Origin: Sulfobacillus thermosulfidooxidans DSM 9293
GTDB lineage: Bacteria; Bacillota; Sulfobacillia; Sulfobacillales; Sulfobacillaceae
NCBI RefSeq assembly: GCF_900176145.1
Contig: NZ_FWWY01000001.1
Coordinates: forward strand, 3,205,011-3,269,010
Direction: 5' to 3'
DNA: 64,000 bases
Positions 37,937 to 48,899 of this stretch are shown here, one piece after another. The notes beneath the pieces were generated by a model. It saw nothing but the letters and a program-made list of their open reading frames with translations. It did no database searches and was not told where the DNA came from. Position numbers and translations under genes: made by a program. Within the stretch, counting starts at the first letter, position 1, and each line of letters starts with the position of its first letter.

Positions 37937-38110
37937 ATAGGTGCCAACAAACCGGGCTATGAACTCTCCCGCCACCTAACCCTATCGGGTTGAGGTGGGG
38001 GTTTCCCGGATCACTCCGCGAAGTTCCTGGTTCTGCGACCTGTGCATGTCCGTCTTTGACGGAGCACGTCTTATGTGAGTCTCCCCAGGCGTGACTTCGG
38101 ACCGTTCCGG
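37937..38110 (-). ncRNA. candidate omega RNA (reRNA) of TnpB
   Basis: TnpB uses an RNA that overlaps the 3' end of tnpB and runs through the right end into flanking DNA, which supplies the guide. Here the minus-strand sequence through the tnpB stop forms the 11-bp hairpin 37972-37998 and ends near GTTCATAG (37964-37957). The next ~20 chromosomal bases (37956-37937) would be the guide. Ends are inferred, not seen. Confidence 0.4.
37972..37998. repeat. right-end hairpin of the IS200/IS605 element
   Basis: CCACCT-AACCC, loop TATC, GGGTT-(G)-AGGTGG: 11 base pairs with one bulged G. It overlaps the tnpB stop codon. Confidence 0.75.
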
Positions 38111-39439
38111 CCCTAGTGTCCGAAAAATCCGCGTCGTTTTACGCGATGTCGTAAGCGGTTCTCCGGACAGGAGTTTCTGAATCCCGCGTTTTTTGATCAC
38201 GCGGGCGGCATTGTGGTCCGCATTGTCCCTGTGTCCGCAGCGTTGACAGACAAACGCAGCCTGGGAAGGCCGATTGTCCGGGGCAGTGAATGTACACTCA
38301 GCACATTCCTGCGAACTGTGTTGGGGCGGAACCGTGATGACGAGTTTGCCTCGGCGCCGTGCTTTATAGCGCGTGAACATGACCACCTGGCCCCATGCCG
38401 AGGCGAGAATAGCCCGGTTCAGGCCCGCTTTCGCGGCCCGCCCGTTGGGCAGAAAATGGCCTTGGGCGTCTTTTTTTGCTTTGGGCCGTTTGGTCATCTG
38501 CTGGATAGGCAGATTCTCAAAGACGTACAGGTCGTAGGCTGCGTGGACCACAAGCGCGTGACTGGTCTGATGCGCATACTCGTGTCGGACGTTCTTTTCG
38601 TACTGGGGGTAGTGAGCCACTTTTCGGTAGGCTTTCTTCTGATTTTGCGATCCTTTTTTTCTGCGGGAAGCCCGTCGTTGCCAGCGTCGGTGCTGCTGCC
38701 GCGCTTTCTGGATTCGGGTTTGCTGCACCGGTAGGAGATCAAACACGTGACCGTCGGAGGTCATGAGGGGCTTGGCAATCCCGCGATCTCCGCCGAGCGT
38801 GCGCTCGGCGAGTTGGTCAGCAGAGAGGTGCCGTAAATCCTCGGCGATGCGTTCGGTTGCCGCGTCTCCCTCCTTGCCGGGAATCGTGACGGTCAGATCC
38901 TCCGCCGCAAACGAGAGCCACCACTGCCCCCCTTCGATGGCAAGATATATCGAAGCCGGCACAGCGTGCGGCCGATGGGCCACATACGGGATGATCCCGA
39001 CGGGAAATTTGTCGGTACCGACATGCAGGTGATACCCGCACACCGCGCCGGGGGTGTCATCGACTATCGGACGAAATTCGAACAACTCCGAGGTCAGCCA
39101 GACACTTTGTCGCCCGGATTTCCGCTTCATCTTTGGGCGACCACTCAGTTTCTGAAAAAACCGTTGATAGGCTTGTCGCCAGCGCACCGCGCCATTGCGC
39201 AACACTGGGGAGGGCACTTGGCGGAGGAATGCGGTCTTTGCCGTAATGAAGCGGCTGTACTGTTGGTCGACAGGAATGTCTTCGCCCACAGTCCCGACCA
39301 TCCGCCGCTGAAATCGGCGAAAATAGCGATCTTCTTGCACTTTGGCGTTGTAGATGAGGCGTTGACACCCGATCCACTGGAGCAAGATCGGCTCCTGCTC
39401 TGGACTCGGATACAGGCGAAACTTATACCCGTTCAGCAT
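37982..39439 (-). CDS. tnpB: TnpB RNA-guided nuclease / IS605 OrfB
   Basis: A 485-residue TnpB. The N-terminal OrfB_IS605 helix-turn-helix region begins YKFRLYPSPEQEPILLQWIGCQRLIYN. The split RuvC domain has its three acids in GGDRGIAKPL (D), YVFENLPIQ (E) and HRDNADHNAARVI (D). The four-cysteine zinc finger SSQECAECTFTA...FVCQRCGH lies before the last acid. All catalytic residues appear intact. It has a longer-than-usual C-terminal tail (~60 residues) that overlaps the putative omega RNA. TnpB proteins cut DNA guided by omega RNA and help the element persist. It is divergent from tnpA, 51 bases apart. Confidence 0.95.
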   Translation of the reverse strand: MLNGYKFRLYPSPEQEPILLQWIGCQRLIYNAKVQEDRYFRRFQRRMVGTVGEDIPVDQQYSRFITAKTAFLRQVPSPVLRNGAVRWRQAYQRFFQKLSGRPKMKRKSGRQSVWLTSELFEFRPIVDDTPGAVCGYHLHVGTDKFPVGIIPYVAHRPHAVPASIYLAIEGGQWWLSFAAEDLTVTIPGKEGDAATERIAEDLRHLSADQLAERTLGGDRGIAKPLMTSDGHVFDLLPVQQTRIQKARQQHRRWQRRASRRKKGSQNQKKAYRKVAHYPQYEKNVRHEYAHQTSHALVVHAAYDLYVFENLPIQQMTKRPKAKKDAQGHFLPNGRAAKAGLNRAILASAWGQVVMFTRYKARRRGKLVITVPPQHSSQECAECTFTAPDNRPSQAAFVCQRCGHRDNADHNAARVIKKRGIQKLLSGEPLTTSRKTTRIFRTLGPERSEVTPGETHIRRAPSKTDMHRSQNQELRGVIRETPTSTR

Positions 39440-39490
39440 GCCCTCACCTCCTTGCGTTGATTCGGACGTCTATTATATCATTAAGCTACT

Positions 39491-39970
39491 ATGAATGACA
39501 CAGAAATGATGTCTGCCTCACATGCAGTGTACTCTCTTCGGCTACATATCGTCTTCGTGACCAAATATCGAAGGAAGACATTAACGTCAGAACTCCTCGC
39601 GGCCTTGCGAGAGGCGTTCGCAGAAATCCTGAACGACTGGCGCTGTACCCTGATTGAGTTCGGGGGGGAAGCAGATCATGTCCATTTGCTGGTGGGTATC
39701 CATCCTGCGCTGAACCTGTCTACCTTGATTAACAATCTTAAGTCCGCCAGTGCGCGGCGGATGCGCAATCGATTTGCCGATCATTTAGCGAAATTCTATT
39801 GGAAGCCATACTTCTGGCATCGCGCATACTATGTCGGGAGCGTCGGTGAAGCCTCGCTGGAGACGGTGAAACGTTACGTCGAAGCCCAAGGGACGCAAGA
39901 AAAACTGGATGTTAGTCTAAATTGTGGACACCTCGAATTGAGACAAGATGATACAATAATTCTCAATTGA
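39491..39970 (+). CDS. tnpA: TnpA Y1 transposase of IS200/IS605, 3' end altered by IS3
   Basis: A 159-residue HUH/Y1 transposase. The HUH motif is in GGEADHVHLLVG (residues ~55-66) and the catalytic tyrosine in VKRYVEAQGTQEK (residue ~129). YSLRLHIVFVTKYRRK at the start is the family signature. The last 15 codons (39925-39970) lie inside the left end of the IS3 element, so the natural C-terminus has been replaced by IS-encoded residues. Core catalytic residues are retained, so activity is possible, but the left end it acts on is now 1.2 kb away. Confidence 0.9.
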   Translation: MNDTEMMSASHAVYSLRLHIVFVTKYRRKTLTSELLAALREAFAEILNDWRCTLIEFGGEADHVHLLVGIHPALNLSTLINNLKSASARRMRNRFADHLAKFYWKPYFWHRAYYVGSVGEASLETVKRYVEAQGTQEKLDVSLNCGHLELRQDDTIILN

Positions 39971-39980
39971 GGTGAATCCG

Positions 39981-40268
39981 ATGGCCAATCAATATGATCG
40001 AGCGTTTAAAGAACAAGCGGTTCAACTCGTGTTGACCCAACAAAAAAGTGGCGCGCAAGTGGCGCGCGAACTGGGCATTCCCAGCAAAACCTTGTATGCC
40101 TGGGTCGCTGCCTACAAAGCCGACCCGGTCGAACCCTTTGTGGGTAGTGGGCATCTGAAAGCGGAAGACCAAGCCCTGCGCGATTTGCAGCGACGCATTC
40201 GGGATCTCGAAGAGGAGAATGCGATCCTAAAAAAAGCGATGCGCATCTTCACCAACGATCGGAAGTAA
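39981..40268 (+). CDS. IS3-family transposase OrfA
   Basis: A 95-residue protein with GAGGTG before ATG 39981. It has the HTH_8/Transposase_8 domain (YDRAFKEQAVQLVLTQQKSGAQVARELGIPSKTLYAWV) and a C-terminal leucine zipper (LQRRIRDLEEENAILKKAM). A heptanucleotide slippery site A-AAA-AAA followed by G at 40229-40236, in the right phase, would let ribosomes shift to the -1 frame and make the OrfAB fusion transposase. The -1 frame is open from there into orfB. Confidence 0.92.
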   Translation: MANQYDRAFKEQAVQLVLTQQKSGAQVARELGIPSKTLYAWVAAYKADPVEPFVGSGHLKAEDQALRDLQRRIRDLEEENAILKKAMRIFTNDRK

Positions 40269-40315
40269 TCTTTCCGTTCATTCATGAACACCGCTTCACC
40301 TTCTCGATCACGAAG

Positions 40316-41125
40316 ATGTGCCAAATCCTCGACGTTTCGCGAAGCGGGTATTATGCGTGGCGCCATCGCCCTCCCAGTACTCAGGCGCAAGTCCGGACCC
40401 GGCGGGTCGAACGGATTCGGGCGGTGTTTACCGCATCAGGGGAACGCTACGGCAGCCCCAAAATCACCGCCGTGTTACGGCGGGAAGGCGAGCGCATCAG
40501 TCAAAAAACGGTGGCACGGTTGATGCACGACCATCGATTGCGCTCTCGCGTGACACGGAAATATAAAGCCACCACCAATTCTCGGCATACGTTGCCGGTG
40601 CATGAGAACGTGTTGAATCAAACGTTTACCGCGGATCGGCCGCATGCGGTGTGGATGGCAGATATTACCTACATCCCCACCGAGGAAGGATGGCTCTATT
40701 TAGCAAGCCTCGAGGACTTGTACACCCGAAAAATTGTGGGATGGGCCGTGGATCGGCGCATGACGCAAGACTTAGTTCTCCGGGCCTTAGACCGCGCGGT
40801 CAGGCACAGCCGGCCGCCGGCCGGGGTGTTGCATCACTCGGATCGGGGGAGCCAATATGCCGCGACGGCTTACCAAGAGCGCCTTAAGCAATACGGGATG
40901 ACGGCCAGCATGAGTCGGAAGGGCAATGGCTATGATAATGCCATGATTGAATCATGGCATAGCCTCCTGAAAAAGGAGCTCATTTACCTGACGAAATTCC
41001 GAACCCGGGCAGAAGCGGAAGTTGCGATCTTTGCCTATATCGAGATTTTTTATAATCGGCAGCGCGTCCATAGCGCCCTAGATTATCAGACTCCAGCCGA
41101 GGCTGAGGCGGCATATCAAGCGTGA
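40316..41125 (+). CDS. IS3-family transposase OrfB (DDE integrase)
   Basis: A 269-residue frame with HTH_21 (MCQILDVSRSGYYAWR) followed by the rve integrase core. The DDE triad is visible in VWMADITYI (D), LHHSDRGSQYAA (D) and NAMIESWHSLLKKEL (E). In-frame residues upstream of ATG 40316 (about 27 codons back to the slippery site) also match the family, so the working product is the OrfAB fusion made by -1 frameshifting. It appears intact. Confidence 0.95.
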   Translation: MCQILDVSRSGYYAWRHRPPSTQAQVRTRRVERIRAVFTASGERYGSPKITAVLRREGERISQKTVARLMHDHRLRSRVTRKYKATTNSRHTLPVHENVLNQTFTADRPHAVWMADITYIPTEEGWLYLASLEDLYTRKIVGWAVDRRMTQDLVLRALDRAVRHSRPPAGVLHHSDRGSQYAATAYQERLKQYGMTASMSRKGNGYDNAMIESWHSLLKKELIYLTKFRTRAEAEVAIFAYIEIFYNRQRVHSALDYQTPAEAEAAYQA

Positions 41126-41814: not shown

Positions 41815-42228
41815 TCAAACTCCCGAAGCATTGAGACGGAGTTGCTTTAATGCATCTAATATCTGTTGTGGCTCGGGAGGACAGCCTTTAACGACCACAT
41901 CAGGCGTTTGTAGGGCTTTTGCCACACCACCATGACTCGCATAGGCTGATTGAAATACCCCACAACCTGCAGCACAATCCCCAATAGCCATAAGCCATTT
42001 CGGGGAGGGCATGGCTTTCCACACCGTGTGCAGAGGAAGATACATCGTATCATTTACCGGACCGGTAACGATGAGAACATCCGCATGTCGAGGCGATGCG
42101 ACGATGTCCAATCCTTGATGTTGAAAATCATAGAACCGATTAGTTAAGCTGGTTAATTCTTGTTCGCATCCATTGCAACTTCCGGCATCAACATGGCGTG
42201 CTTGCAAGGCTTTCCCTGTTCGATTCAT
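41815..42228 (-). CDS. hyfI: hydrogenase-4-like small [4Fe-4S] subunit (HyfI/NuoB-like)
   Basis: A 137-residue NuoB-family protein. The four cluster-N2 cysteines are in SCNGCEQELT (C-x2-C, residues ~18-21), IGDCAAGCGVF and VKGCPPEPQQI. It carries the proximal [4Fe-4S] cluster in the soluble arm of group-4 [NiFe] hydrogenases and related complexes. It is the last gene of the minus-strand operon arsR-hyfB-C-E-F-G-I. No HyfA- or HyfH-type ferredoxin subunit follows; the operon simply ends here. Confidence 0.9.
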   Translation of the reverse strand: MNRTGKALQARHVDAGSCNGCEQELTSLTNRFYDFQHQGLDIVASPRHADVLIVTGPVNDTMYLPLHTVWKAMPSPKWLMAIGDCAAGCGVFQSAYASHGGVAKALQTPDVVVKGCPPEPQQILDALKQLRLNASGV

Positions 42229-42243
42229 CGCATTCTTCTCCTC

Positions 42244-43695
42244 CTATCGATCATTACAGCTATAACAAAGCTCAAAACTCTTATTGATTAAGGGAAAATC
42301 GGCGATACCGTTCCCCGTTACAGCCCTTGCTAGTAAGGGCCAATTACGGAAAGCTCCCGACCGAATATGATAACGGCGGATATGGCCGGCTTCTAATCTA
42401 ACAACATGACAATTTAGCCCGTGAGGAGATTCTGAAAAGGTTACGGCATCACCTGACAGGTCAGGCGGAATGGTCCAGAGGGGCTCTCGGGAAGAAATCA
42501 TCGCGGCAAGATGTGTGGCAGCTTGCCGAATAATTTTCCAAGACTGTTCGACTTCCTCTAGACGCATTCTGAAGCGTGCGCTCACATCGCCAGAACTATA
42601 GGTGGGTATAGTCATGGATAGCCCGCGGTAGAGCGGCATAAGCGAGCGGGCATCAAATCGAACGCCGCTCGCGCGAGCTACCACACCCACACCGCCTAAG
42701 CGTACAACGTCATCCGCGGCAACTGTTCCCACACGGTGCATGCGGTCTTGAAATCCGTGATGATTTTCCACCATCTGGCGCCAACGTGTCCATGACCTTT
42801 GGATGGTATTGATAAGGGCCAAAACCGTAGGAACATCGCCCTGTTTGGCGTATCCGGGTCGAACCGTATCAAATAATAGGCGGTGACCAAACACCTCTTT
42901 CATTCCCTGTTGCCAAATTTCTTTTAAGGCTAACCCATGTTGGTGAGCCACTTGAAAACCCACTCCGGCAGGAATTTGCGCTAAATCATTAAGGTGACTT
43001 AATACCCTCTCCGATTCCAATAGCATGATGCGTCGCCACGCCAGGGATTCATTCATCGCAAAGCCCGCAATCTGTTCTACGGCCATGGCCCAATTGGTTT
43101 GATGGGAAACCGAATCGGCGCCACAAACGCGCGACAGTACGATGGCCGCGTGAGGCAGACTGGTATGCTCTAAAAGGGATTCGACGCCCCGGTGCGTTTG
43201 AAAGAGGTGTAGATCAACATGCAGCACATTCTCGCCCATGAGACTAAACAAAAATCGTCCCGACTCAATAATGCCGGCATGTACTGGTCCCACGCCCATC
43301 ATGGTAATCCCGTCTCCCTGTACCCGAATTGAGGGATTGTCCGGCCCTTCGGCATTCCATGAACTCTCCGGAGAATCAGAGGCCAATGGCACAAATTCCC
43401 GGGGCCAGCGAGGTGTACGCACTAAAGGACGTAAGTCCAAATGGCCTTGAGGATAATAGCCAAAGAGATCATAAATTTCTCGCTCATCCCATGCCACTTC
43501 AGGCAATACGGGGGTGAGCGAAGGGAATTCATCCGACTCAATCTGTAACAGCCCTTGATCGATCTGACCATCGGGACGCAACCAGTGGCTTAATAATGTT
43601 CGGTTTTTGAAGGCTGTCAGTGCTAAAAGATGGCTACCGTTGTGTTTGTATTCCTCATTAAAGGATTGCCACGGGTTCATCTCTAGGTTGTTCAC
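42244..43695 (-). CDS. hyfG: hydrogenase-4-like large subunit, NuoC-NuoD fusion with altered Ni site
   Basis: A 483-residue fusion. The N-terminal ~110 residues are NuoC-like (WDEREIYDLFGYYPQGHLDLRPL), and the rest is the hydrogenase large-subunit/NuoD fold (PVHAGIIESGRF, HRGVESLLE). The C-terminal Ni motif keeps both cysteines (C477 and C480 in ELCYSCNDR). The N-terminal motif, CGxC in true hydrogenases, is C191-G-A-D194 (RVCGADSVSHQ): the second cysteine is aspartate. So three of four Ni ligands remain. This suggests a hydrogenase-related (Ehr-like) complex or an atypical hydrogenase. It starts at GTG overlapping the hyfF stop. Confidence 0.9.
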   Translation of the reverse strand: MNNLEMNPWQSFNEEYKHNGSHLLALTAFKNRTLLSHWLRPDGQIDQGLLQIESDEFPSLTPVLPEVAWDEREIYDLFGYYPQGHLDLRPLVRTPRWPREFVPLASDSPESSWNAEGPDNPSIRVQGDGITMMGVGPVHAGIIESGRFLFSLMGENVLHVDLHLFQTHRGVESLLEHTSLPHAAIVLSRVCGADSVSHQTNWAMAVEQIAGFAMNESLAWRRIMLLESERVLSHLNDLAQIPAGVGFQVAHQHGLALKEIWQQGMKEVFGHRLLFDTVRPGYAKQGDVPTVLALINTIQRSWTRWRQMVENHHGFQDRMHRVGTVAADDVVRLGGVGVVARASGVRFDARSLMPLYRGLSMTIPTYSSGDVSARFRMRLEEVEQSWKIIRQAATHLAAMISSREPLWTIPPDLSGDAVTFSESPHGLNCHVVRLEAGHIRRYHIRSGAFRNWPLLARAVTGNGIADFPLINKSFELCYSCNDR

Positions 43696-45044
43696 AATAC
43701 GCTCTCCCCTTTCACCTCGGTGACATCTACCACTGAATTGCTGGGGGCGACTTTAGGAAAAAAGAGATCGTGCGATCCCCATAATTGGCGTAGTACATGA
43801 TACATTAGCGCCATAAACGTCATTAATAAGGAAATGGCCATGATGATTAACAAAACCATGTGACCGTTCCACAACGCTGCCAGAATCAACCATTCACTGT
43901 AGGCCAGCCCTAGTGGGGGTATGCCCGCTAACGCAAGAATTCCAAGGGTCCAAAGAATCACAAGAGGTTTGTGGGTGTGCCGGATGTTGACCAGTTTATC
44001 CAAGTCCTTGGTTTGGTAGATCACACTCAAGTGTCCCCCGGCGTAAAATAAGGTCGATTTAACCAACGCATGGAACACAAGCTGTAATAACGCGGCCAAG
44101 CGGGCAAGCGGTGTGTCAATTCCCAAGGCAATGGCAATAATTCCCATCTGCTCTAGCGATGAGTAAGCTAATAACCGTTTCACATCACGTTGGACCAGTA
44201 AGGCCAGCGACCCAACCACGACCGACAAGGTGCCAAATAGCGTTAACAAGTGAAATCCGGATAGGAACGATCCACCGGGCAAGATAATACTGGTCACGAA
44301 ACGTTCGATTGTAATCAAACATAGTCCCAAGAGGACACCCGACAACAATCCACTCACGGGTGAGGGTGCCTCGGAATGCGCATCTGGTAGCCAGGTATGA
44401 AACGGTACTAATCCTACCTTGGTGCCAATCCCACTCACAATGAGGATTGTGGCCAACGCCCTTACAATGGGAGGAATAGCGCGGTAATGGTGGGCAAGAT
44501 TCGTGTAGTTCAGTGTCGTCCATCCCAGATCTTGAAACTGAAGAGCTGCATACAGAAAGATAATACCAATGAGTCCCAACGCTAACCCGACAGAGGCAAT
44601 GACGATGTATTTCCAGGCCGCTTCCAAGGCTTGATGACTTCCCATAAGAATTATGAGCGCACCCGATGCCAATGTGGAAAATTCGATAGCCACCCACGAC
44701 ACGGCTAAATTCGGCGAGCCGGCAATCAGAATAAGAGAGATCCAAAACAAAGCCCACCCGATATAATAGTGTTGAGTAGGAATTTTTGGATGTTCATGCA
44801 ACCAAATAACACTATCCCATGCGCTTGTCGTCGCAATCACATTAGTCATCACGAGTAAAATGGGCGTCCAATGCCAATGGCGGCTTATTAATAACGACCA
44901 CTCCGTATACAAGGTGAACAACAACACCACACTCACCCACGTGGCGATGACATATGGCGTCCGTTGGCGTTGTAAAACACGTTCAAACATTGATCCTACA
45001 ATCACGCCAACTGGTCCTAAACCCAACAACCCTAAACTGTCCAC
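43692..45044 (-). CDS. hyfF: proton-translocating membrane subunit HyfF/NuoN-like
   Basis: A 450-residue antiporter-like subunit (Proton_antipo_M domain) with about 13-14 membrane helices. Family landmarks include the conserved glutamate helix (SWVAIEFSTLASGALIIL), KVGLVPFHTWLPDAHSEAPSPVSGLLSGVL and LLAYSSLEQMGIIAIALG, with the lysines and glutamate of the proton channel. GTG 45044 follows AAGGGGGT. It overlaps hyfG by GTGA. Together with HyfB it would couple electron transfer to proton or sodium movement. Confidence 0.93.
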   Translation of the reverse strand: MDSLGLLGLGPVGVIVGSMFERVLQRQRTPYVIATWVSVVLLFTLYTEWSLLISRHWHWTPILLVMTNVIATTSAWDSVIWLHEHPKIPTQHYYIGWALFWISLILIAGSPNLAVSWVAIEFSTLASGALIILMGSHQALEAAWKYIVIASVGLALGLIGIIFLYAALQFQDLGWTTLNYTNLAHHYRAIPPIVRALATILIVSGIGTKVGLVPFHTWLPDAHSEAPSPVSGLLSGVLLGLCLITIERFVTSIILPGGSFLSGFHLLTLFGTLSVVVGSLALLVQRDVKRLLAYSSLEQMGIIAIALGIDTPLARLAALLQLVFHALVKSTLFYAGGHLSVIYQTKDLDKLVNIRHTHKPLVILWTLGILALAGIPPLGLAYSEWLILAALWNGHMVLLIIMAISLLMTFMALMYHVLRQLWGSHDLFFPKVAPSNSVVDVTEVKGESVL

Positions 45045-45050
45045 CGCTCT

Positions 45051-45674
45051 TTACCCCCTTAACCTTTGAAGCGCTGTCACATCGGTACTCTTGAACTGTT
45101 GATGAATGCGTCTCGTCATCCACACGAGAATAGCAGCAGCCACAAGCAAGTCTCCCAACATGCCTAATTCCATAAAAATGGGTAAAGAGCCGGCGACCGA
45201 GTAGGCTAAAACGACGAGACCATTTTCTACACCAATTAAAGCTGTCACTTGAGATAACACGTGACGACGACTGACGATCATCAACAGGCTTAAATGAATA
45301 CTCGCGAGCCCATAAAAGAATAATGTCCGATGTAAGATGAGATGTGTCGGTGTTAAAACGTGGATGACATGATTGACTCCTAGAACTAAAATAGCGGCAA
45401 TAGCATAGGCCCAGAGCGGTAAAGGATAATCCTGGCGAAATTCCGCAGGCCATTGCCTTACTACGCGCCACACTGATCCGGGAATTATAACCCCTTTAAT
45501 CAGTAACGTCGCTACGGCAATAGCCAAATCGGCATCACTTAAAGAACCGACCAGCATCATGACGGTGAGCGCTAATCCATCGGTCAATAAAAATAGGGCG
45601 GCGTAAGAAAGATTGCGCGACCATAAGAGACCAGCTGAAGACAAAAACACTAACAGTCCTGCGGTATCCATCAT
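45051..45674 (-). CDS. hyfE: membrane subunit HyfE-like (NuoK-related)
   Basis: A 207-residue protein with six to seven hydrophobic helices, similar in size and place to HyfE. The second half has the NuoK-like QVTALIGVENGLVVLAYSVAGSLPIFMELGMLGDLLVAAAI with the conserved glutamates. It starts directly after the hyfC stop (TAAATG) with a G-rich ribosome-binding site inside hyfC. Part of the membrane arm. Confidence 0.88.
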   Translation of the reverse strand: MMDTAGLLVFLSSAGLLWSRNLSYAALFLLTDGLALTVMMLVGSLSDADLAIAVATLLIKGVIIPGSVWRVVRQWPAEFRQDYPLPLWAYAIAAILVLGVNHVIHVLTPTHLILHRTLFFYGLASIHLSLLMIVSRRHVLSQVTALIGVENGLVVLAYSVAGSLPIFMELGMLGDLLVAAAILVWMTRRIHQQFKSTDVTALQRLRG

Positions 45675-46592
45675 TTATCGCAGTCCCCCCGACATCGCCA
45701 AATAAGAGCCGAGAAGCCCAATTCCCGCACCCAAGGTAACATAGCGTGGCAAGTGGAAATACCGTAATTTCACAAATCGGCTTTCCATCCAGGCGAGCAA
45801 CATGGCTGATGCCATGATTTCGACCATATGAAGGACAACATTCACCCATGGAAATGGAACAATGGGTCCTAACCAGACCCAACCCAATCCGATAATAATG
45901 GTAAACTTCAGGGCCATGGCCAGTTGTTCCTGAGCCAATAAACGCCCACTATACTCCAAAATGGTTGCCTCGTGCATCATAGTCAGTTCAAGATGTGTAT
46001 CGGGATTGTCTACTGGCAATCGTCCTGTTTCAGCAATCACAACAAACAGATAACTCAGTAGTGCAAGTCCCCAAGGCAGGAAACCTGATGGCGAAGCATT
46101 CGTAAAAAATGGAACCACCGTTTCAATTTGTGTATGTCGACTGACAACCCACAACACGCCAAAAGCAGCTAACATCGCCGGTTCAATACCACTGCCGATC
46201 GTAGCAATCCGGCTGGCCCCGAGTCCCCCAAATGTCGTTGCGGTATCTAGACCCGCTAAAGCGACACTGAATCGTTCCAAGCCTAGGAGAAAAAAGATAC
46301 TTAGCACATTGTGAGGCCAATTCGTCGGAATCTGCCCCGCCCATGGAATGGAAGCGGCAATGACGATTAAGGTGGCAACATTCACAGTGGGATTGAGTCG
46401 AAAAATCCATGAACTTCCCTCAGGCACAAATGTTTCTTTGGTCCAAGTCTTAGCAAATATTTGGTAGGGCTGTATCAAGGAGGGTCCTTGACGCCCCTGA
46501 AAGTGGGCTTTTGTTTTTTGGGCAATCCCCCAAATTAAGGGTGCCAAGACAATGATAGCCATAACGGACACGATTTGAATAATCCAGAGCAT
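45675..46592 (-). CDS. hyfC: membrane subunit HyfC/NuoH-like
   Basis: ATG 46592 follows GAAGGTGATCAG and starts the hydrophobic protein MLWIIQIVSVMAIIV; the open frame upstream is not typical. The 305-residue product is a NuoH-family membrane anchor with FQGRQGPSLIQPYQIFAKTW (residues ~31-50), GGLGASRIATIGSGIEPAML and ETGRLPVDNPDTHLELTMMHEA, the loop at the quinone- or cluster-facing site. It joins the soluble HyfG/HyfI arm to the pump subunits. Confidence 0.93.
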   Translation of the reverse strand: MLWIIQIVSVMAIIVLAPLIWGIAQKTKAHFQGRQGPSLIQPYQIFAKTWTKETFVPEGSSWIFRLNPTVNVATLIVIAASIPWAGQIPTNWPHNVLSIFFLLGLERFSVALAGLDTATTFGGLGASRIATIGSGIEPAMLAAFGVLWVVSRHTQIETVVPFFTNASPSGFLPWGLALLSYLFVVIAETGRLPVDNPDTHLELTMMHEATILEYSGRLLAQEQLAMALKFTIIIGLGWVWLGPIVPFPWVNVVLHMVEIMASAMLLAWMESRFVKLRYFHLPRYVTLGAGIGLLGSYLAMSGGLR

Positions 46593-46633
46593 CTGATCAC
46601 CTTCGATAAAGGATTTGAGATGGCAAGAGGGGG

Positions 46634-48513
46634 CTAACGCACAAACCATAACATGAGTCCGATAGTGGCCAATAAATAGGTCAGATATAAGCGAACTGGC
46701 CCAGCTTGAATCTTCGTACTATAGCGACTGAGCATCCACAGCCACCGATAACCGGGGCCATAAATATAACGTTCCCAAAGCGGTGTTGTTCCGCCCTTGT
46801 ATACGAGTTTTTCTGGAAAATCACGGGCATAAGGACCTATGCGTTCTAGACGCCGGTGAGGACGATAAATCAGAGCAAACGTTGTCCTGACGGCCTTGGT
46901 AAATGACGCCGAGGTCCATTGCATCGATGGCTCGCTCTCACGCCCACAGGCCCATTGGGATCTAATCGTGACATCCCAGGGTCGAGATATGATCACGAGG
47001 AAACCGATAACGAGAGTCAGCATGCCCGCAATTACCGGGGCCTGCAAAGAATGAGTTACAGAAAATGGAACAGCAAGCCTCAACCGGGGATCCGTTCGGA
47101 GCATCATTCCAAACAAGGGATTGGGATAAATTCCAAGAGACAATGCCATCCCTGCTAAAATGCCAATGGGCCATGTCATGGCCTTCGGCAGCTCATGTTG
47201 AGGTTGCTTTGTACGAGGATGTCCTAAGAACGTGACGCCAAACGCTTGGACAAACCCCAAGAGGGCTAGCCCAGCCGTGAGGACCATAATCAAGGCTATG
47301 GTCATGAAGAAGATCGCCGTAAACCCCGGACGATGTTGGGTAATCTCCAAGAGACCGCGCAGCGTAATCCATTCACTGATGAAACCGTTGAATGGCGGGA
47401 TCCCGCTAATCGCCAAACTTCCGACTAAAAATCCGGTAGCAATAACAGGAATCGTACGCTGCAATCCGCCTAAATGATCGATATCTAATGTCTGAGTGTG
47501 CTTTTCCACGGCCCCTGCAGCCAAAAACAATTGCGTTTTGAAAATCGCGTGATTGAGGGTATGCAGAAGACTGGCCAAAAGTCCTAAGCTAACCCATAAC
47601 GGGTGATGGGTGTCAATGCCGAGTGCCATAGTGCCTAAACCCAAAAATATGATTCCCATATTTTCGATACTGGAATAGGCAAGGAATGTTTTCAAATCAC
47701 GTTCCATCAGGGCATAAAGAACACCTAACAAACCTGACATCGCTCCAAAGGCTAGCAAAGTAAATGCCGTCCCCTTGTATAAGGGCCCGAGGTCGATTAA
47801 AACAAATTGGATAATCCCAAAAACACCGAGTTTAAGCATGACGCCGGACATCAAACTCGATACGGGCGCTGGAGCAACCGGATGAGCTCGGGGAAGCCAA
47901 ATATGAAAAGGGACAATTCCGCTCTTGATAGCAAAACCGGTCGCTAACAGACTAAAAATCTCTAACTTGATGTGAGGCGGCAGATTTGCGCCTCCCTGAT
48001 ACCATTCGCTAAAATTCATCGAATGAAGGTGGGTACCCATGAGTAGCAGGCCCAAGAGAATACACAAGGCACTCACTTGAGACATGACCAGATAAACAAA
48101 CCCTGCCGGGATAACGCCCCTCCGATCGGGATGCGATACAACCAAGAAAAATGAGGTTATAGTCATCATTTCCCATGATGTCATGAACACCCAAACATTT
48201 TGAGCCACTATTACCGTCATCATACTCGTCACAAACATCACAAACCAAAAGCTGCCGTTGTGCGTGACCGCTCTTTGTTCCGGCTCATAACCAATCTGGT
48301 ACCACGTGGACATGCTCACACCAAGCCCTAAAATCATGAGAAACCATGACCGTAAAGGGGTGAGTGCGAAAAAATTGTCCCCGACACCACCGAACCAGAA
48401 ACGGCAATGCTGAGTATCGCAATACCCCAAGCGATGGTTAACCCATACGTTCTTCGACGCGTGAGGGCCAATAACGCCAAAAACATTCCACTCAACACGA
48501 GCCCTACTAGCAT
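46634..48513 (-). pseudogene. hyfB: proton-translocating subunit HyfB/NuoL-like, frame broken in a run of six A/T
   Basis: The main frame (to 46634) encodes a NuoL/HyfB-type antiporter subunit with ~13 helices (KSGIVPFHIWLPRAHPVAPAPVSSLMSGVM, FLAYSSIENMGIIFLGLG, GISGIPPFNGFISEW). Its first helices, however, lie in another frame: ATG 48513 to about 48375 reads MLVGLVLSGMFLALLALT... as expected for HyfB. The two frames meet at a run of six A (48369-48374; T6 in the mRNA). One more base would give the continuous TIFFALTPLRSW. Either the gene is inactivated, the frame is corrected by slippage, or the base is a sequencing error. The N-terminal residues encoded from 48595 in the second frame are hydrophilic and unlike the family. 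Confidence 0.85.
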
Positions 48514-48569
48514 CACTAACCCTACTCCATTCGTTGCATATTAACGGCAAAACTCGAGACCGAAAAAGA

Positions 48570-48899
48570 CTAGGTCGTTTCACGTTCCTCTTCATGTAAC
48601 AACGAATTCATGTTAGCTACTTGATGTTCAAAGATTTTTCGTGCGATATCCATGAGGTCAAAAATTAACGGGTCTCTGACCGAATAAAACACGTTCGTAC
48701 CGCTTTTTCGCGTATCTACCAGTTGTCCCCGGCGCATCACTGCTAACTGCTGAGACACTGAAGACGCTTCAATATTCAAGTCGTGTTGTATTTCGGAAAC
48801 GGTTTTTTCACCTGTCCGGAGGAGTTCCAAAATTTTTAAGCGGATAGGATGCCCTAATGTTCTGAACAATTCCGCCTTAAATTCATGCAACGCACTCAT
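48570..48899 (-). CDS. ArsR/SmtB-family transcriptional regulator
   Basis: A 109-residue winged-helix protein: FRTLGHPIRLKILELLRTGEKTVSEIQHDLNIEASSVSQQLAVMRRGQLVDTRKSGTNVFYSV. It lacks the CVC metal motif of classic ArsR, so the signal is unclear. It is the first gene of the hydrogenase-related operon, 56 bases before hyfB, and probably controls it. A GGAGGAGGATG ribosome-binding sequence precedes the start. Confidence 0.92.
   Translation of the reverse strand: MSALHEFKAELFRTLGHPIRLKILELLRTGEKTVSEIQHDLNIEASSVSQQLAVMRRGQLVDTRKSGTNVFYSVRDPLIFDLMDIARKIFEHQVANMNSLLHEEERETT

Follow-up and report, generated by a model that had tools for sequence, protein, structure and literature searches.

A gene for a HyfG/HycE-like large subunit in Sulfobacillus thermosulfidooxidans DSM 9293 raises the question of what a hydrogenase-type complex does when one of the four cysteine ligands of its nickel-iron site has been replaced by an aspartate. 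The gene lies in the 64,000-nucleotide stretch of DNA analysed here (the window, whose numbering is used below), and the features on which the question turns are the following.

42244–43695, minus strand: HyfG/HycE-like large subunit, GTG start, 483 amino acids, CxxD...CxxC, C-terminal extension absent
43123–43125, minus strand: codon of C191, equivalent to HycE C241 by alignment
43114–43116, minus strand: codon of D194, replacing the bridging HycE C244 in 20 of 20 clade members
42421–42423, minus strand: codon of H425, replacing the canopy arginine HycE R478 (ESPHG against ESPRG/EAPRG) in 20 of 20 clade members
42256–42267, minus strand: codons of C477-Y-S-C480, equivalent to HycE C531/C534, three residues ahead of the stop

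According to its family matches, the large subunit is a fusion protein in which a domain resembling the 30-kDa subunit of complex I is joined to one resembling the 49-kDa subunit, and its best PDB sequence match was found to be HycE, subunit 5 of the Escherichia coli formate hydrogenlyase. The first site motif, VLSRVCGADSVSHQ, contains C191 and D194, and the protein ends with INKSFELCYSCNDR followed directly by the stop, the C-terminal pair being C477 and C480. Alignment of RVCGADSVSH with RVCGICGFAH of HycE made C191 equivalent to C241, D194 to C244, C477 to C531 and C480 to C534, so that the original prediction of a large subunit of the Hyf/Hyc type, related to group 4 and at odds with an ordinary [NiFe] site, with C191-G-A-D194, an intact C-terminal CxxC (found to be C477-Y-S-C480) and thus three of the four ligand cysteines, was verified, the cysteine count holding in 20 of 20 clade members. 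In [NiFe] hydrogenases, nickel and iron are bridged by the second cysteine of each pair, and the cysteine lost at position 194 is therefore a bridging ligand. What the original prediction had missed is that the canopy arginine of HycE (R478, in EAPRG) is a histidine here (His425, in ESPHG), and that the protein stops three residues past C480 and consequently has no HycE-type C-terminal maturation peptide; Glu144 (HycE E193) is retained. The AlphaFold2 model of the large subunit (mean pLDDT of 88.5, pTM of 0.91) found its best PDB structural match in HycE (7z0s_E, Z of 46.8, 469 residues aligned, rmsd of 2.3 Å), followed by complex I chains with Z values of 44 or less, and HycE was top-ranked by Foldseek as well.

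A search covering 154 class genomes, together with a scan of genome contigs, yielded 20 clade members in the final alignment, with pairwise identities of 49–89% and 118 invariant columns among the 430 aligned. C191, D194, H425, C477 and C480 are present in all 20, which leaves the clade without either the two CxxC motifs (C191-x-x-D194 in 20/20) or the canopy arginine (His425 in 20/20) of group 4 [NiFe] hydrogenases. A sequencing or assembly error at D194, and with it the sequence correction to CGxC that had been named as a refutation, was ruled out, since a change from Cys to Asp requires two substitutions, all 16 of the 16 genomes checked have GAT or GAC as the codon, and the aspartate is present in all 20 sequences. 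Six of the 430 columns (163, 194, 201, 262, 425 and 479) are fixed differently in the CxxD clade and in its 11 nearest four-cysteine sisters, and three of these are at the site, namely the lost ligand at 194, the canopy position at 425 and residue 479 between the last two cysteines. Three pairs compared for the large subunit gave dN/dS values between about 0.08 and 0.16 (Nei-Gojobori), and the protein is therefore under purifying selection. That all five site residues are fixed argues against their being a passive leftover. One member of the Sulfobacillus clade, a large subunit with CxxD and His, was also encountered in an actinobacterial bin (L091, a record titled Acidimicrobiaceae MAG), either through transfer or through mis-binning.

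When the five columns of the site were masked for tree building, the proteins with CxxD and His formed a single clade (100/100), nested in the four-cysteine tree beside four-cysteine proteins of the same class. The nearest four-cysteine relatives are 40–45% identical, with all four cysteines and the canopy arginine, and the large family enclosing them ends in FPLINKSFELCY(S/A)CxDR. This sister family shares the operon core, often the ArsR gene, and the C-terminus with the Sulfobacillus complex, and differs from it in retaining the four cysteines and the arginine. The position of the clade among four-cysteine proteins and near cysteine-free ones supports the intermediate state that had been proposed, and the large subunit also groups, as anticipated, with Ehr complexes. 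A second Ehr-type operon was noticed in the host genome at 540 kb (L012, 5700–12829); its large subunit has T/S/S/G in place of the four cysteines, keeps the canopy arginine and falls elsewhere in the same tree.

The contig scan returned at least 590 pattern matches, the best 80 of which were drawn from many phyla. Among these proteins, an actinobacterial MAG (L157, 4302–5534) encodes an independent CxxD with the canopy arginine kept, in a genome with HypE and without a HypD match. Common origin of the Sulfobacillus CxxD clade and this protein was rejected (p-AU of 4.9e-6), and the sequences thus indicate that CxxD arose at least twice. A protein of Candidatus Riflebacteria (L128, 8001–9299) reads CGTC...CYAD, with the aspartate at the other bridging position, and neither HypD nor HypE over its cut-off was found in that genome. 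Taken with the Sulfobacillus clade, L157 and L128 imply that aspartate replaced a bridging cysteine three times among three-cysteine proteins, and none of the three-cysteine proteins seen has an aspartate at a terminal cysteine position. A Desulfosporosinus MAG (L137, 4529–5827) encodes a protein with only the two bridging cysteines (Ser-Cys, canopy Gln, Ser-Cys).

The ability of the carriers to assemble an [NiFe] cofactor was assessed by scoring HypD together with HypF and HypE, the latter two each over its cut-off. In the host, HypD, HypE and HypF occur as two sets, at about 1.02 and 1.84 Mb, each over 1 Mb away from the window. A full maturation set, together with H2 activity, had been named as a finding that would overturn the prediction; such sets are indeed there, but each lies at most about 6 kb from another, standard hydrogenase large subunit, and their presence is uninformative for this complex. 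Across the 16 CxxD-carrying genomes of the class, all three genes were absent from the same 11 (86–99% complete) and present in the same five, the host included, so that a statement that no carrier has Hyp would be untrue. The three genes were likewise absent from the 11 of 11 genomes with the nearest four-cysteine sisters (81–99% complete) and present in two more distant four-cysteine carriers of the same class (G041 and G060); in the wider genome set, HypD was found in 32 of 50. Neither HypD nor HypE over its cut-off was found in two named strains that are not MAGs, Sulfoacidibacillus thermotolerans Y002, which encodes the four-cysteine form of the large subunit, and Anoxybacillus sp. J5B_2022. 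Two Anoxybacillus strains (L129 and L136) encode near-identical four-cysteine large subunits, with HypD, HypE and HycI in one genome and absent from the other, and are a natural pair for studying Hyp-dependence. Absence of HypD alone was dropped as proof that [NiFe] maturation is missing, the metagenome-assembled Ca. Jettenia (G176) and Actinobacteria (G200) genomes lacking HypD and holding HypE; three Hyp genes were used because a single-gene absence may be an assembly gap. HycI is weak as an additional test, with family matches in two Hyp-less carriers (G094 and G117). Since the majority of the Hyp-less carriers appear to be draft or metagenome assemblies, and in one carrier the hyp genes are confined to a second, small contig (G111:C2), some of the absences could be binning losses. 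The absence of Hyp genes from most carriers agrees with the report that AMDSBA1-4 have no group 1, 2 or 5 hydrogenases and that each species has a group-4 type (Justice et al. 2014, PMC4378227). Because HypD, HypE and HypF are missing from the majority of genomes encoding the CxxD protein, the nickel site with an aspartate ligand that had been raised as a possibility is unlikely.

The large subunit belongs to a compact operon with the order ArsR-type regulator, HyfB, HyfC, HyfE, HyfF, HyfG and HyfI. The genes flanking that of the large subunit are given below.

41815–42228, minus strand: HyfI/NuoB-like small subunit, with the proximal-cluster cysteines C18, C21, C85 and C116 conserved in hydrogenase spacing
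43692–45044, minus strand: HyfF-like antiporter subunit, pump motif FHTWLPDAHSEAPSPVS intact
45051–45674, minus strand: HyfE-like membrane subunit, matching NF008556 under its curated cut-off
45675–46649, minus strand: HyfC/NuoH-like membrane anchor by family match, retaining the main conserved stretches of its E. coli counterpart
46634–48595, minus strand: HyfB-like antiporter subunit, N-terminal region frameshifted near 48392
48570–48899, minus strand: cysteine-free regulator of the ArsR/SmtB family, conserved at the operon head

Fifteen further genomes of the class have the same gene order, and all but one of these orthologous neighbourhoods (14 of 15) include the ArsR gene. A role of this regulator as a metal sensor was dropped, as cysteines are absent and only generic family matches were obtained. 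The conserved block contains no HyfA, HyfD or HyfH gene and encodes neither a formate dehydrogenase nor a maturation protease; HycB/HycF/NuoI-like and HyfJ genes are likewise absent from the operon. The small-subunit motif GSCNGCEQE is spaced as in HycG, all four cluster cysteines being present, and HyfF and HyfB both match E. coli in their antiporter motifs. In the host strain, hyfB has four bases fewer near 48392 than its closest relative (L043), which shifts roughly the first 40 conserved codons into a frame other than that of the rest, the conserved N-terminus being read from about 48513; hyfB is intact in the relatives compared, as is the large-subunit gene of the host strain itself. This apparent frameshift is either a true mutation or an assembly error, and because of it the complex may be impaired in the host strain. 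Just downstream of the operon (37982–41125), the translated reading frames include what appear to be two insertion-sequence pairs, first TnpB and TnpA of the IS200/IS605 type and then a pair of the IS3 type.

When compared with E. coli hydrogenases 3 and 4 (HycE/HyfG; formate hydrogenlyase, group 4a), the Sulfobacillus complex shares subunits B, C, E, F, G and I, the fold, three ligand cysteines, Glu144 and the small-subunit cluster, but differs in the exchange of a bridging cysteine for aspartate and of the canopy arginine for histidine, in the missing C-terminal extension, in an operon without HyfA, HyfD, HyfH and HyfJ genes, and in a Hyp-independent distribution. With Ehr complexes, as the texts describe them (Marreiros 2013, as cited; Justice et al. 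2014, PMC4378227), it has in common hydrogenase-like subunits without the standard motifs; the published text speaks only of lacking motifs, whereas three cysteines and a fixed Asp/His pair are found here, which also sets the complex apart from the cysteine-free Ehr of the host at 540 kb. A group-4/complex-I-like large and small subunit with a membrane arm and an incomplete [NiFe] ligand set, the features by which Ehr complexes are recognised, are all present.

The incomplete [NiFe] residues, the mostly missing Hyp genes, and the absence of both the quinone-binding His/Tyr of complex I and the open cluster of the membrane-bound sulfane reductase MBS favour an Ehr-type, hydrogenase-derived ion pump whose catalytic cavity would hold no [NiFe](CN)2CO and would have a Hyp-independent Cys3Asp/His site, a reading considered probable on the sequence evidence. 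The occurrence of the same site in related species without [NiFe]-assembly genes likewise suggests an energy-coupling complex that probably has a function other than in hydrogen metabolism. In such a complex, a cytoplasm-facing redox module, made up of the large subunit and the small subunit with one [4Fe-4S] cluster, would be mounted on the HyfB/C/E/F membrane arm, and electron flow would be coupled to ion movement; the complex is predicted to pump ions. In an operon with no HycB/HycF/NuoI-like gene, a soluble donor of low potential, ferredoxin for example, might supply the electrons. The former ligand set, now Cys3Asp with a histidine above it and presumably made without Hyp proteins, would most likely bind a simple metal ion of the Zn or Fe type, or else may serve as a proton or substrate site ending the electron path.

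Among the alternatives, a quinone reductase resembling complex I, working through the cavity between the large and small subunits, is unlikely. The fold is near that of the complex I 49-kDa (NuoD) subunits (8e9h_D, Z of 44.0, over 355 residues) and the membrane-subunit families are the same; nevertheless, the quinone-binding His and Tyr of complex I are Ile143 and Gly192 here, complex I keeps none of the ligand cysteines, and a separate NuoD is present in the host genome. Reduction of sulfane sulfur (polysulfide) in the manner of Pyrococcus furiosus MBS, catalysed by the proximal [4Fe-4S] cluster, appears improbable, even though it would suit sulfur-metabolising acidophiles and the large subunit has a profile match to 6u8y_L, which we take to be the MBS large subunit. 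MBS is a hydrogenase-derived group-4 relative with partial cysteine loss (PMC7684303), but it keeps two of the four ligand cysteines rather than three, and it needs a small-subunit motif shorter by three residues and a three-cysteine proximal cluster, whereas GSCNGCEQE has hydrogenase-like CxxC spacing and belongs to a cluster with four cysteines. A working [NiFe] hydrogenase, with Asp194 standing in for one bridging cysteine and His425 for the canopy arginine, is very doubtful: the three cysteines, Glu144 and the fold are retained and the host, with its hyp sets, is able to make the cofactor, yet 11 of the 16 carriers lack the three Hyp genes, and even a lysine at the position of the lost arginine cuts the activity of Hyd-1 more than 100-fold (PMC5962704). 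A decaying, functionless hydrogenase, to which the hyfB frameshift and the loss of one ligand and the canopy residue might point, is highly improbable in view of the whole operon kept in 15 other genomes, the low dN/dS and the invariant site.

Returning to the Ehr-type ion pump, it is tentatively proposed, at somewhat less than even confidence, that the ligand cysteines were retained for a different, Hyp-independent metal site, four of them being kept by sisters without HypD, HypE and HypF, and that this site became Cys3Asp/His in the Sulfobacillus lineage; the complex would then be neither a hydrogenase nor a complex whose site was simply lost, but an ion pump in which the catalytic centre is new.

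Group-4 subunits of Sulfobacillus were already described in 2014 as Ehr-like, lacking the [NiFe] motifs and having a function not known at that time (Justice et al., PMC4378227), and Ehr complexes without the ligands have been reported elsewhere (PMC6349859, PMC10284858). In the open-access literature covered, which did not include the 2013 Ehr survey, no report was found of a conserved Asp/His replacement or its repeated origin, nor of four conserved cysteines without HypD, HypE and HypF. In the published scheme, the ligand cysteines disappear step by step between membrane hydrogenase and complex I, with four in MBH, two in MBS and none in complex I (PMC7684303). The CxxD/His clade represents a conserved three-cysteine stage, at which Cys to Asp and Arg to His are coordinated exchanges rather than a simple loss. 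The four-cysteine sisters in Hyp-less genomes suggest that the cysteines alone are insufficient for calling a hydrogenase from a genome, and Hyp-less isolates with the four-cysteine form, such as Sulfoacidibacillus thermotolerans Y002, make the question of Ehr function a testable one.
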